IMG/VR virus record: IMGVR_UViG_3300049728_000037
Span: 1-26,015 of that record
Origin: a virus
Strand: one strand, 5' to 3'
Length of the DNA: 26,015 nt
The notes below the pieces were generated by a model, which was not told the DNA's origin, made no database searches, and saw only the letters and a list, made by a program, of their open reading frames with translations. Position numbers and translations under genes: made by a program. Shown piece by piece: positions 1 to 16,928 of the stretch; the first letter of the stretch is position 1, and each line of letters opens with the position of its first letter.

Positions 1-412
1 ATGTGTCCGGCCAATTGACTGTTACTGGTGTTGCTGAAAGCGAGTCAGCATCGTATTTAGCGATGATGCCAGAAGTGGAGCAACTTGCGCTGATCGTGTA
101 CGCCGCGCTGCCAACCGCACTGTCGCTATGATGAGCGCAGCCACGAGCCTGAGCGTAGAGCGTTACGCCTGTGGTCACGGAGTATGTGGTCTGCGCCGTG
201 ACCGGGGGATTGGATGTGTCGAAATAGATCGTGCAGCCATCGCTCGTGCTGGTCGATGCCGTGACGGTCGTTGGGTTTGTGACCGCGCCCGCTACCGGAG
301 AAAACGTGGGCGTTGCGGCGGGCTGATTGGTGCCGCCCATGATGATAGAAAGAATCTGGCCTTGCGCTGGAACCGCAAGCAGGCACGCGAGGAGTACGAA
401 TAGACGCTTCAT
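1..412 (-). CDS. Secreted-type appendage protein with chitobiase-C-like domain (partial, runs off left edge)
   Basis: This reading frame starts at ATG 412 and is still open at base 1, giving 137 visible residues. A Shine-Dalgarno GGAG lies 8 bases before the ATG, and the upstream gene ends only 14 bases away. Residues 1-19 look like a bacterial signal peptide: Lys-Arg, then a Leu/Val/Ala core, then a PAQGQ cleavage region. Residues about 34-107 match the pattern of the chitobiase/beta-hexosaminidase C-terminal Ig-like domain (PTFSP, TIYFDT, TLYAQA, AAYTI). From about 112 a new domain begins (IIAKYDADSL, VNWPD), which recalls the start of concanavalin/LamG-type lectin domains. It is the last visible member of the fibre gene cluster, so a surface-binding role is inferred. 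The signal peptide is odd for a virion protein. The coding call is sure; the function is tentative. Confidence 0.8.
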   Translation of the reverse strand, partial: MKRLFVLLACLLAVPAQGQILSIIMGGTNQPAATPTFSPVAGAVTNPTTVTASTSTSDGCTIYFDTSNPPVTAQTTYSVTTGVTLYAQARGCAHHSDSAVGSAAYTISASCSTSGIIAKYDADSLSATPVTVNWPDT

Positions 413-426
413 GCTGCATTCTCCAA

Positions 427-3400
427 TCAGTTAACCGTGACCACCCCTACATAATTCGTAGTAAAATAATGCGTTGAATCGCGCCCCACAATGCAGACCA
501 AGTTCCCTGCTGCCGCCGACAGGACCAGTGTGCCCGTGCCCGCTGTTCCGTAAGCTGTGCGAGCAGAGTTTTCATATCTGGCGCTTGACCCAAGAGCGGA
601 CAACGTGATCGCCGTACCCACATTGTCGTCGTTCAAGATGCAGAATTGGTATCCCGCTGCCGGTACAGGAACAGACACCGTGCAGGTCCCTGTGCAGACG
701 GCGATTCCAGACGGGGCCGCAAGGGTGATGGAGGCGCTAGGTGTCGGAACCGCAACAGCGGGGATGGCAGTAGCTGGAATATCACCCGCGGCAATCGCCG
801 CAGAGTTGTACACACCCGGTACCGCCGTCGCGTGCAGGACGTGCGTCGTGGTCGTATCCGAGTTTGCGCCCACCATATACTCGGATGTGTTCGGGTAGGT
901 TAACGTCACCGCGCCAGAGGAAGCTGGATAGGTCGATGTGGTCGTGTTCGTGCTCGTGCCGGTCACAAGCTGGTTAGTGGCATGGGTAATAGCCAACGGC
1001 TCAGATGAGGAAACTGTGGTGCTATTGTCGGTAAGGTGAGGCGCGCTCCATGAAGTTCCGCTTTGCCATAGCGCATAGCCGGGGGTCGTGGGCCAGGTCG
1101 TCGAGACGGGAGCAGCATTTACGGCTATTTGATAGCTGGAACACGTTAAGGTTGTATTTGATCCGGCAGCAACTCCCGCATCGCCCACGTAATCTGTGGT
1201 TGATCCGCTAGTTGCGGATATGCGAATTAGCTGATCGTTGCAGGACAATGTAGGCGCGGTACTGAGGCCGTTATAGGTCGCACCCGAACCAAGCACTACC
1301 ACGCCCGCGCCAGCCGCCTGTACCGTAAATGAGCACGGATTTGCTGGTTGTGGGTTAGGCAATGTCAGCGAGTAGCCGCCTAGTCGGATAATTTGTCCAC
1401 AATCGCTTGAAACCAAGCTGCGGGATGATGCCAGTTGCTCTGTACCACCGCTGCCGCTGCAAATCCCGTTAGTCGCCGTGCAGAACCGAGACGCTGCACC
1501 GCCAGCCTCGCTGCCCACGGCATTGCCAGAAGCATCGACACCATACACCGCCGTGGTGCTCGATCCAGGCACAAGTGCGTGTCCTGTGTTGTAGGTGAGG
1601 GAAAGCTGTGAAGCCACGGAACTGGCGTTGACGACAATCGGCTCTGAGGAATTGACGTTCCCTCCGCTGTCAGTCAGGCTCGGCGTGCTCCATGAGCTTC
1701 CGCTTTGCCAGAGAGCGTATCCGGGAGATGAAGGCCATACCATGCCACTGGTAGTGCTGCATGTGCCGTCGTTCTTCAAGTAGCCGCTGCACGATCCGCT
1801 GCCAAATAGCGCCACAACATCAGCATAGGTGGGCGTGACCCAGTTGCTACTTCCACCGTATTTTGCGAGGCCCGTGAACGTGGGCCAAACCATGCTTCCG
1901 CCTGTCGGAAAGAGCGGAGTCCATATAGTCCCATTCCACCGGCAGGCGTTGAACGTAGTCCCGGCTCCAGCGGTGCAATCTGAATATGACGCAGCATTGG
2001 TCGTGTAGACAACCTGATTTAGAAAGAGGCCCTTGGCAGGAAGTGCGGTCGTCGCTGGTGATGTGTAGCCGTTGATGCTGTACGTGAGGTTCGCCCGTAC
2101 AGTGTTCGGCACGGCAGTTTGCGCCGGCCCGAAGAACGATACGAAGTTCCCCTGCAAGGCGTTGTCAGTCGCATCCGACGTGGTGCCTGCGATGATTGCT
2201 CCCTCCATCCAGTTACCCGGCGAAGGTGTGCCGTCACCGCCCATGCCCAGCGTGACGTTCTGCTCCAGGTTCATCGTGTAGCCTGCGGGCAAACCAGCGT
2301 TATAGAGAGTCGTCCATCGGCCCTGCGTGATGTCGCTCGACTTGACCGCAAACGTCGTGCCGCTGGTATTGTATTTCCCCAGCACGGCGAGGTAATTCTG
2401 CGATGGCGTGCCTCCGTAGAGGCAAACCCCCTCTTCCAAATCGATTCCGGCAAAAGGTCCAGTGCCGGTTCCAAGGTTAACGCAATCGACCGCGTTGCCC
2501 GTGCTGAAAGCAGCCCCGAACATCTTCCCCATGCCCGCATCGCGAACCGGATTTTCAGCCTGATTGAACAGGCCGCAGCACCCATTGATGATTCCGCCCT
2601 CAGAATAGTTTTCCGCGAGCATGTAGACGGTAATCGAACTGTTGCCCGAAGGCAGACCGGATGCTCCAGAAGCCGTGGCATAGCCGTTCGTCATGCCAAA
2701 ACGGTTGATAGGCAGGACCAGGCCGCTCGGCATCGTAGTCCAACTGGAAGGCACAGCGACGTAATACTCAGGCGATGACGAATAGGGAATCTCGTCATTT
2801 GCGCTGGTCCCGGTCTGGTCGTATATTTTGCTGCGGGTGCAAGTCGTGCCAGCGCAAAACGCCGTCTCAGTTGCGATATTCACAAGCCCCGAAGAAAGCG
2901 TTCCCACGTTCGTCGTCGTGCTATCCGAGGCACGAGTCACTTGATACAAATTGCCGGAGTACGACGCGAACATTCTCCGCACCAGTGAGTACGCCGCTTT
3001 GCACGTCTGCCCGCCAGCCGCCACAATGTCGCACGGGAACGCTCCCGGATAGACGAAGTTGTACGGACCCTGTGGCCGAAATGTGAGCTGGCTTGAGCCG
3101 ACCGTAATCGGGTTCGGCGTATCCACCGCAAAGACGGTATCGAAGTTGGTTGATCCTGCCGTGACGTAAACCATGTTGCCGGTCACTGGCGAAGCGAAGT
3201 CGCTTGCTCGCGTCCATGCGCCTGATCCGCTGACGTACACGCCATTCTGCGTCTGCGTGGTCTGATCCTTGACGAGTACGCGCGAAGAGGAGGTCAGCAC
3301 GCCGTCGATGGTCTGCTCGCCTGACAAACTGATGTTGCTGCCTGTCGTGGCAAGTTGGACTGGGGCCGTGCCGGAGGTGCCGCCGCCTGTTGCCGTGATC

Positions 3401-3630
3401 GTCACGATGCCCGTGCAACTTCCGCTCACCAGTGGCGAGCAGTTCGTATTCGTACCGGGGATGATCTCGTTGACGCCAGCGCTTGTTCCGTTTCCCCATT
3501 GCGTCTGCGCACCCACCGTTTGCAGGGTCTGCCCATTAGTCCCAGGCCTGATCTGGTTCGGATTGATCGTCTGGGCAGTGAGGGCCGCTGCCGTCACCAG
3601 CGCGGTACTAAGTAGTCCAATAGTTCGCAT
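427..3630 (-). CDS. Tail-fibre-like protein with GH54 alpha-L-arabinofuranosidase-type domain
   Basis: This 1067-aa protein starts at ATG 3630, 9 bases after GGAG and overlapping the previous gene by 23 bases. Residues 1-20 resemble a signal peptide (hydrophobic core, LTA-Q site). Residues about 108-186 match a domain common in phage tail fibres (RVLVKDQT, NGVYV, WTRASD, ITVGSSQLTF). Residues about 198-501 match the GH54 arabinofuranosidase catalytic domain: CDIVAAGGQTC (C200, C210), FCAGTTC (C259, C264), a vicinal CC at 351-352, DLEEG with E399 and GMGGD with D466. As recalled from the fungal GH54 enzyme AkAbfB, these correspond to its three disulfides, its nucleophile Glu and its acid/base Asp, at similar spacings. 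The remainder is beta-rich fibre with a roughly 40-residue repeat (629-669 and 843-884). The likely role is binding and trimming arabinose-containing surface polysaccharide; activity is inferred. Confidence 0.85.
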   Translation of the reverse strand: MRTIGLLSTALVTAAALTAQTINPNQIRPGTNGQTLQTVGAQTQWGNGTSAGVNEIIPGTNTNCSPLVSGSCTGIVTITATGGGTSGTAPVQLATTGSNISLSGEQTIDGVLTSSSRVLVKDQTTQTQNGVYVSGSGAWTRASDFASPVTGNMVYVTAGSTNFDTVFAVDTPNPITVGSSQLTFRPQGPYNFVYPGAFPCDIVAAGGQTCKAAYSLVRRMFASYSGNLYQVTRASDSTTTNVGTLSSGLVNIATETAFCAGTTCTRSKIYDQTGTSANDEIPYSSSPEYYVAVPSSWTTMPSGLVLPINRFGMTNGYATASGASGLPSGNSSITVYMLAENYSEGGIINGCCGLFNQAENPVRDAGMGKMFGAAFSTGNAVDCVNLGTGTGPFAGIDLEEGVCLYGGTPSQNYLAVLGKYNTSGTTFAVKSSDITQGRWTTLYNAGLPAGYTMNLEQNVTLGMGGDGTPSPGNWMEGAIIAGTTSDATDNALQGNFVSFFGPAQTAVPNTVRANLTYSINGYTSPATTALPAKGLFLNQVVYTTNAASYSDCTAGAGTTFNACRWNGTIWTPLFPTGGSMVWPTFTGLAKYGGSSNWVTPTYADVVALFGSGSCSGYLKNDGTCSTTSGMVWPSSPGYALWQSGSSWSTPSLTDSGGNVNSSEPIVVNASSVASQLSLTYNTGHALVPGSSTTAVYGVDASGNAVGSEAGGAASRFCTATNGICSGSGGTEQLASSRSLVSSDCGQIIRLGGYSLTLPNPQPANPCSFTVQAAGAGVVVLGSGATYNGLSTAPTLSCNDQLIRISATSGSTTDYVGDAGVAAGSNTTLTCSSYQIAVNAAPVSTTWPTTPGYALWQSGTSWSAPHLTDNSTTVSSSEPLAITHATNQLVTGTSTNTTTSTYPASSGAVTLTYPNTSEYMVGANSDTTTTHVLHATAVPGVYNSAAIAAGDIPATAIPAVAVPTPSASITLAAPSGIAVCTGTCTVSVPVPAAGYQFCILNDDNVGTAITLSALGSSARYENSARTAYGTAGTGTLVLSAAAGNLVCIVGRDSTHYFTTNYVGVVTVN
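979..1104 (-). repeat. Internal fibre repeat, copy 2
   Basis: This stretch encodes residues 843-884 of the GH54-containing protein. It shares the pattern WP..PGYALWQSG.SW..P.LTD with copy 1 at 1624-1746, and the DNA is also visibly similar. Repeats of this kind usually form successive beta modules of a fibre shaft. Confidence 0.75.
1624..1746 (-). repeat. Internal fibre repeat, copy 1
   Basis: This stretch encodes residues 629-669 of the GH54-containing protein (VWPSSPGYALWQSGSSW, SLTD, SSEP). It matches copy 2 at 979-1104 at both protein and DNA level. A third, weaker relative begins at residue 581 (VWPTFTGLAKYGGSSNW). Confidence 0.75.
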
Positions 3631-4144
3631 TGAGGTTATCTCCAGTCGTCAGCGCTGTTGCCAGCGTGATTGTAGCCCCGCTTAATGAGTAGCCGAGTCC
3701 GGGCGTGAGAACTTGACCGTTTTGCTGTAGGACAAGGGAGCCGCCGACAGGGGTAGATGGCAGTGTGAATACGGAACCCGGAATTGCTCCACTGATAGCC
3801 CCTGTGTTTGTGGAGGCTTGAACCGGGGTGTATCCCCCTCCGCCGCCGCTCCCCGCAATAGCCTGATCTGGCAACACAACTGGGTTATAGCCGAAGAGCG
3901 GATGCCAGATGACCACGGTATAAAGGACCGCGTTATCCAGATACGCATAGGCGTGCCCAAACCCGTCTGTGAGGATAGGCTGAGTTTCTGGCGTTCCTCC
4001 GCTAATGCTGTCATAGATGGTAGCCAGCGGAGACGGAGGATCATTGGCCGTGGACGCTGGTTGAGTACACCAGTAAACCTGTGCCCCGGCCAAAGCTCTG
4101 CCCTGTGCGTCGGTAACATATCGATCATCTCGCGCACGCGCCAT
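3608..4144 (-). CDS. Tail appendage/fibre adaptor-like protein
   Basis: The 178-aa protein begins at the ATG directly after the TAA of the upstream gene, so translation is probably coupled. The N-terminal half (residues about 8-95) reads as a compact beta domain often seen at the start of phage appendage proteins: VTDAQGRALAGAQVYW, then a GFGHAYAYLDN segment and YTVVIWHPLFGY. A Gly-rich linker (98-103) leads to a C-terminal domain (about 120-178: GSVFTLP, LVLQQNGQVLTPG, YSLSGATITL, NANYWTT) that resembles fibre modules. It precedes the GH54 fibre gene and overlaps it by 23 bases. It could connect the fibre to the tail or be a short fibre itself; the function is inferred. Confidence 0.75.
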   Translation of the reverse strand: MARARDDRYVTDAQGRALAGAQVYWCTQPASTANDPPSPLATIYDSISGGTPETQPILTDGFGHAYAYLDNAVLYTVVIWHPLFGYNPVVLPDQAIAGSGGGGGYTPVQASTNTGAISGAIPGSVFTLPSTPVGGSLVLQQNGQVLTPGLGYSLSGATITLATALTTGDNLNANYWTT

Positions 4145-15783: not shown

Positions 15784-16488
15784 TTATCCAACTGTCATCA
15801 TGCCCCGACTGTAGCCGGAGGCAATTCTCATGGCCTGGTCCATGTGTTTTTCAATGAACTCGGCCCGTTTTTGCACCAATGCGCTCGACCGGCGCACGCG
15901 AGAGTCGTGAACTGCGTCTTTCAGTTTGGAATCGAGTGCGACATCCTGCTGCGCCTTGCGGTCCTTCAATGCTTCGAGCTTCTGGTAAGGCGCAAGACGC
16001 TTCCACGCAAGCAGCATAGGGAGCATGATGTCCAAAATCAACCCTGTAGGCTCCATGCGATAGGTCACAAACCGTTGATCCTGCAATCTACGCATTTCGG
16101 GACGCTTCTTGATGGGATTCCATACCATCTCAGACACTTCGCGCTGCTGCGCTTCCCGATGAAGCATCTGTTTCAACACTCGATAGCGCCCATACTTCGG
16201 GAATGACCCGCAATCGAGCAAACCCGTCTCCGGTTGACGATAATCGAACTCCCACAGATCGGGATCGCCGAATACTTCCGGCCCTTCCCAGATCATCAGC
16301 ACCCAGCATGGGTCTTTGCCCATCACTCGCGCATTGCGATAGCCCAGAAACCCATCTGCAAATCTGCCGCCGATGAGCATTCTGATGTCTTCGCTCCACA
16401 CGAGCTTGAAAAGCGGGTCGCCGTAGCGGTTTGTGCCGCCGATGCGCTCTAACTCATCATTGAACCATGCGGGGGCTTCGCGGATCAC
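15784..16488 (-). CDS. Unknown protein, 234 aa, capsid-connector interval
   Basis: The start ATG overlaps the stop of the GroES-like gene by 4 bases, so the two are translationally coupled. The N-terminal half looks like a compact globular domain rich in Trp, Gly and Asp (APAWFNDELERIGGTNRYGD, GFLGYRNARVMG, CWVLMIWEGPEVFGDPDLWE). The second half is basic and helical (LMLPMLLAWKRLAPYQKLEA, residues 185-225 with many Lys/Arg). No transmembrane segment or known catalytic motif stands out. Its fixed place after the capsid and chaperone genes suggests a head-related role, but the family is not recognised. Confidence 0.7.
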   Translation of the reverse strand: MIREAPAWFNDELERIGGTNRYGDPLFKLVWSEDIRMLIGGRFADGFLGYRNARVMGKDPCWVLMIWEGPEVFGDPDLWEFDYRQPETGLLDCGSFPKYGRYRVLKQMLHREAQQREVSEMVWNPIKKRPEMRRLQDQRFVTYRMEPTGLILDIMLPMLLAWKRLAPYQKLEALKDRKAQQDVALDSKLKDAVHDSRVRRSSALVQKRAEFIEKHMDQAMRIASGYSRGMMTVG

Positions 16489-16928
16489 TCGGCCCTCACT
16501 GACCCATCGGGTTGTACGATAACCCGCGCATCTGACTCTGAATTCAGAATCTCTTCTAGCTGAGCGATAGTAGGACGTTCTCGCTCCTCATGCCGCAAGC
16601 CGCGCCCCAACAGATCCCCGACGCGAATCTCCAGATACTCCGGCAGATCGCGCCGGTTCTTGTCGCTAGGTAGCAGCCAAATCTGTCCCGCGTAGGCGTT
16701 GTCGGAGTCGAAAAACACTTCGTCTTCTACCTGCACGGGCATTTCGATGAACACGCCCGCCATCGCAACGCCGTCGCCCACCGCTCGCACAATGCCTCGG
16801 TCGGAGCGATACTTGACCCGCTGATCGTCTAGCGGAATCTCGATGCCGGATTCAGACTGCTGAAAGAACTTCTCGACCGGCGTGACCTCAACGATCACGC
16901 GGTCAAGGAATGGCTTGCGGTAGAACAT
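16485..16928 (-). CDS. GroES/Cpn10-like co-chaperonin, 147 aa
   Basis: The gene starts at ATG 16928 behind GGGAGACAAA, directly downstream of the capsid gene. Residues 7-110 follow the GroES order: FLDRVIVEVTPVE (GroES LHDRVIVKRKEVE), then SGIEIP at 27-32 where the mobile loop carries GGIVL, then RGIVRAVGDG (GroES RGEVLAVGNG), VQVEDEVFFDSD (GroES VKVGDIVIF), and YLEIRVGDLLG at the position of GroES's closing strand. GroES is 97 aa; the extra residues 111-147 form a charged helical tail. Phage co-chaperonins such as T4 gp31 assist capsid protein folding with the host GroEL, and the location next to the capsid gene fits this. The mobile loop is changed, so binding to the host GroEL is inferred. 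Confidence 0.8.
   Translation of the reverse strand: MFYRKPFLDRVIVEVTPVEKFFQQSESGIEIPLDDQRVKYRSDRGIVRAVGDGVAMAGVFIEMPVQVEDEVFFDSDNAYAGQIWLLPSDKNRRDLPEYLEIRVGDLLGRGLRHEERERPTIAQLEEILNSESDARVIVQPDGSVRAE

Follow-up and report, generated by a model that had tools for sequence, protein, structure and literature searches.

The window analysed here, the whole 26,015-nucleotide stretch of IMG/VR virus record IMGVR_UViG_3300049728_000037, from a soil-type phage, carries an open reading frame of 1,067 amino acids for a modular protein of the receptor-binding-slot type with a GH54 (alpha-L-arabinofuranosidase-type) domain inside it. The features of this gene and its surroundings, all on the minus strand, are as follows; AkAbfB is the GH54 enzyme of Aspergillus kawachii.

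427–3630, minus strand: modular receptor-binding-slot protein carrying GH54 (open reading frame, Pfam and phrog matches).
3640–3643, minus strand: likely ribosome-binding site GGAG, 9 nt upstream of the ATG (read from the sequence).
3571–3630, minus strand: signal-peptide-like N terminus MRTIGLLSTALVTAAALTAQ, borderline alone by a heuristic; its homologues in L144 and L156 (= L209) satisfy the strict rule.
3496–3570, minus strand: TINPNQIRP N-terminal module, common to tail genes of other viruses (L144, L156; sequence comparison).
3076–3357, minus strand: phage tail-fibre module, residues 92–185 (phrog_11518 ‘tail fiber protein’ and others).
2974–3378, minus strand: swapped block of 405 bp, 90.6% identical to L002 (IMGVR 3300049728_000005; DNA comparison).
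2137–3036, minus strand: GH54 catalytic domain, residues 199–498 (Pfam, phmmer, AlphaFold model).
2575–2580, minus strand: vicinal Cys351–Cys352, equivalent to AkAbfB C176–C177 (alignment).
2434–2436, minus strand: E399 at the nucleophile position, equivalent to AkAbfB E221 (alignment).
2233–2235, minus strand: D466 at the acid/base position, equivalent to AkAbfB D297 (alignment).
427–2127, minus strand: tail-fibre-like C-terminal part, residues 502–1067, with repeated WP..PGYALWQSG..W units (translation read), in the place of AkAbfB’s CBM42 domain.
88–951, minus strand: protein tip together with the beginning of the following gene; the DNA is 88.9% identical to that of virus G004 (L208; DNA comparison).
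3608–4144, minus strand: adaptor gene ahead of the variable slot, kept in relatives (synteny).
2–412, minus strand: next slot-region gene, truncated by the end of the window; its start MKRLFVLLACLLAVPAQGQ clearly resembles a signal peptide (synteny, signal rule).

The large terminase of the window is epsilon15-like and 43–45% identical to those of cultured phages, and the structural block is syntenic with virus records G009, G010 and G013 and, more distantly, G003, which rules out contamination by a host gene. Portal- and tail-size genes of the window had no tblastn match in INPHARED. The large gene that follows the adaptor differs in each relative with a readable slot: by eye, those of G009 and G013 are beta-helix-like and that of G003 has an SGNH-like GDS motif, and none of the three has a Pfam match. 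This synteny places the GH54 gene in a variable receptor-binding slot, directly after the tail adaptor gene. Both tail-fibre modules and a place in the tail-gene block were found for its product, in agreement with the initial annotation, which had placed the domain within a tail-fibre-like protein. Elsewhere between the phage structural genes lies a gene for a Cpn10/GroES-like co-chaperonin (16485–16928, minus strand; PF00166, 39.8 bits), and the slot-region protein of G004 (L208 9594–11609) shows weak similarity, below the cut-off, to the N-terminal domain of GH123 (E = 0.0095).

The profile PF09206 (ArabFuran-catal) matches residues 199–498 over profile positions 1–311 of 315 (E = 1.3e-47; 162.9 bits against a curated cut-off of 25 bits), and phmmer matched the same domain to AkAbfB (1wd3; E = 2.5e-23), scores far beyond chance. 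An AlphaFold model of the domain, made with an alignment of 57 other sequences (56 bacterial GH54 and one viral), reached a pLDDT of 80 and a pTM of 0.86; an earlier model of residues 86–506 from a mixed alignment was set aside (pLDDT 44). The beta-sandwich fold of AkAbfB is present in the model, which superposes on the AkAbfB entries with Z 38.7–38.9 and 1.8–1.9 Å over 291–293 residues. The next-best fold match was the tailspike of cyanopodophage Pan3 (PDB 9vyh; Z 16.8), and the jelly-roll matches scoring below it (lectins, neurotoxin binding domains and pilins) were rejected as sharing the general fold only. The GH54 identification is therefore firm: the family and fold first proposed from the letters alone, with a PF09206 search and a superposition on 1WD3 suggested as checks, were upheld by both (best Z 38.9; 1.9 Å over 293 residues). 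GH54 is otherwise known from fungi and soil bacteria.

All six AkAbfB cysteines (21, 31, 81, 86, 176 and 177) align with cysteines in the window domain (200, 210, 259, 264, 351 and 352), so that the positions for three predicted disulfides, including the vicinal one, are kept. AkAbfB D219, E221, G296 and D297 likewise align with D397, E399, G465 and D466. In AkAbfB, E221 is the nucleophile and D297 the acid/base; the title under which the E221Q mutant complex is deposited (PDB 6sxr) agrees with this. The hallmarks picked out beforehand (the cysteine pairs, CC 351–352, E399 and D466) thus all have AkAbfB equivalents. Of the residues F178, W206 and N222, presumably those of the AkAbfB sugar pocket, none is present in the window domain: F178 and its neighbour D179 are replaced by G353 and L354, N222 by E400, and W206 has no counterpart in the alignment. 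F178 and D179 are invariant among the bacterial GH54 sequences compared, whereas N222 and W206 vary there too, so that the pocket differences bear on specificity rather than on membership of the family. Mapped in this way onto AkAbfB, the catalytic machinery is kept while the sugar pocket is altered, and the domain is likely to be catalytically active. The arabinose-containing target proposed earlier consequently survives in part: the catalytic pair is in place, but arabinose specificity is uncertain because of the changes at F178, D179, N222 and W206.

Scans of IMG/VR with five GH54 queries, which are based on short patterns and may miss divergent members, found only L002 and L211 (IMG/VR virus 3300003375_000147). 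L211, the second full-length viral GH54 (185 bits), is a stand-alone protein of 536 aa with a clear signal peptide, encoded near the terminase and portal of an unrelated phage; it keeps the same set of cysteine and catalytic residues, with DWENG as its nucleophile motif. The 29 other virus records searched held no GH54 except a stub of 20 residues in the record of L002, which may be a second tail-fibre-fused GH54 whose gene is cut by the contig end. A search of INPHARED with the window domain returned nothing, whereas L211 and bacterial queries there found truncated modules, and a query with the Microbacterium phage Fizzles protein found tail proteins of Gordonia, Arthrobacter, Microbacterium, Aphanizomenon and Synechococcus phages. 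Of the tail proteins fetched, five in number, all except that of Synechococcus phage S-CBS4 match PF09206 only over profile positions ~14–95, as does Fizzles. These modules score 30–37 bits, and have a LamG-like part after the first ~75 GH54 positions. In a profile alignment, which is weak beyond the first 90 positions, their matched part is free of cysteines and the catalytic pair is missing. Arthrobacter phage Bolt007 gp33 (L216 1504–3906) is a minor tail protein with a SASA-type carbohydrate esterase domain as well as a truncated GH54-like module.

As Gordonia phage Lucky10 gp27 and Aphanizomenon phage CL131 gp026 are already annotated as alpha-L-arabinofuranosidase, phage tails with GH54-like sequence had been recorded before. 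The initial annotation, in stating that no phage depolymerase of this family had been described, overlooked such modules, although they are without most of the domain and the catalytic pair. Our literature search found no study of a phage GH54; a paper on the Moringa phageome names GH54 only within pooled enzyme groups (PMC10227523). Within the collections searched, the window holds the sole GH54 joined to tail-fibre parts that is complete and retains the catalytic pair.

These truncated modules raise the alternative that the window domain is a lectin-like pseudoenzyme that serves only to bind host sugars. We consider this unlikely: the reduction of known tail-protein modules to the first ~75 positions before a LamG-like part, and the changed residues at F178, D179, W206 and N222, would fit it, but the window domain is not truncated, and the six cysteines, D219, G296 and both catalytic residues (E and D) are all present in it; L211 retains the same residues with DWENG at the nucleophile.

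The GH54 gene is a mosaic, with its start, middle and tip each akin to different viruses. Its TINPNQIRP module is similar to genes of L144 and L156, the 405-bp block is shared with L002 and the tip with G004. L002 is an otherwise different phage contig that by eye resembles a contractile-tail phage and ends 22 residues into GH54, and its other genes had no match to the window at blastn or tblastx sensitivity. The overlap with L002 contains 29 synonymous and 5 nonsynonymous codon changes, and 31 of the 38 substitutions fall at the third position. The coding frame is thus under purifying selection in the part that can be compared with this second virus, and the predominance of third-position changes rules out a spurious open reading frame.

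We judged signal-like N termini by an in-house heuristic, picking the start codon that favoured a signal in slot-type genes and controls alike. In its strict form, all 14 slot-type genes taken from other viruses passed, versus none of 15 structural orthologues; the slot-type genes had been chosen for lying in or matching the locus (L211 for its GH54). Among the 22 window genes, only the slot-region gene at 2–412 passed; the GH54 protein’s own N terminus failed, being borderline by the heuristic, whereas the homologous N termini are clear. The protein contains 24 cysteines, arranged as 12 mostly short-spaced pairs, and its cysteine content of 2.25% exceeds the 0.60% of the remaining window genes (Fisher p = 1.6e-6, each residue being counted as independent); slot-type genes of other viruses range from 1.3 to 2.6%. 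Runs of slot-type genes of other viruses, at L205 2560–8739, L208 9594–14081 and L209 1803–4937, all begin with signal-like peptides, of which most end in AQ or GQ, and several of these genes are large, cysteine-rich and without a Pfam match.

GH54 disulfides require an environment outside the cytoplasm, and tail fibres are normally assembled within it. The signal-like N termini and paired cysteines are consistent with folding outside the cytoplasm, and the GH54 protein is probably exported, which, with disulfide bonding, is unusual for a phage fibre. The signal-like N terminus and the richness in cysteines had escaped the initial annotation and bear on where the enzyme acts. Across the locus, these traits would also suit an auxiliary enzyme acting outside the virion, which the infected cell would secrete to obtain arabinose from the polysaccharides of plants or microbes, as would L211, a stand-alone GH54 of secreted type in a phage, and the bacterial relatives, which come largely from soil-type actinomycetes. 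We nevertheless regard this alternative as improbable, as the GH54 domain is flanked on both sides by fused tail-fibre modules and sits in a receptor-binding slot.

We favour, as a probable though far from certain reading, a tailed-phage receptor-binding-locus protein of exchangeable modules whose active GH54 trims a host glycan and which is exported and disulfide-bonded. From its N to its C terminus, the protein would consist of a signal-like segment, a tail-fibre module, an entire GH54 domain and a final part resembling tail fibres. Its GH54 would act as a retaining glycosidase that cleaves a side group (alpha-L-arabinofuranosyl, or a related furanosyl or pentosyl) off a glycan located on the host cell or in its vicinity, and this trimming may let the phage reach the surface or the progeny disperse. 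Once exported and disulfide-bonded outside the cytoplasm, as the signal-like start and paired cysteines suggest, it could attach to virions on release or act as a free depolymerase. The established elements of this reading are the GH54 family and its fold, the conservation of the catalytic pair, the locus, the mosaic make-up and, for part of the gene, purifying selection; the clear signal peptide of L211, in an unrelated phage, also counts in its favour. Against it count the absence of F178, D179 and W206, the change of N222 to E400, and the failure of the protein’s own N terminus under the strict rule; moreover, cytoplasmic assembly is the norm for tail fibres, which makes it difficult to see how an exported protein would become attached to a virion. 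A wider proposal, which we put forward tentatively and rather doubt, is that a soil-phage lineage makes its receptor-binding and depolymerase proteins in a Sec-exported, disulfide-rich form. These would reach their fold outside the cytoplasm and then either be added to virions on release or work as free enzymes, an active GH54 being one of several catalytic cassettes that can be swapped.

With a complete GH54 in a receptor-binding gene, phages would have one more known catalytic family for cutting glycans, and uncultured soil bacteria would be expected to carry pentofuranose-bearing glycans. The locus-wide export signals and paired cysteines, if real, would challenge the view that tail fibres always fold in the host cytoplasm, and the GH54 protein may act either on the virion or as a secreted enzyme.

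Among known systems, the tail proteins Lucky10 gp27, Bolt007 gp33, Fizzles gp29 and CL131 gp026 resemble the window protein in the first ~75 profile positions and in tail location, but differ in having no cysteines in the matched part and no recognisable catalytic E or D. The Pan3 tailspike, second-best in fold, is only 9% identical. AkAbfB (1WD3) shares the fold, the six cysteines, D219, E221 and D297 at 33% identity, whereas the window domain is without CBM42, is fused to tail-fibre parts and differs at F178, D179, W206 and N222. Bacterial GH54 proteins (Actinomycetota, Myxococcota and Fibrobacterota) are full length like the window domain and roughly 35–41% identical to it, but stand apart from the pair formed by the window domain and L211, which makes up a long-branched group of its own (SH-aLRT 99). 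A viral GH54 group of these two is tentative because both lie on long branches; the two are full-length and 43% identical, L211 differing as a stand-alone protein with a signal peptide.
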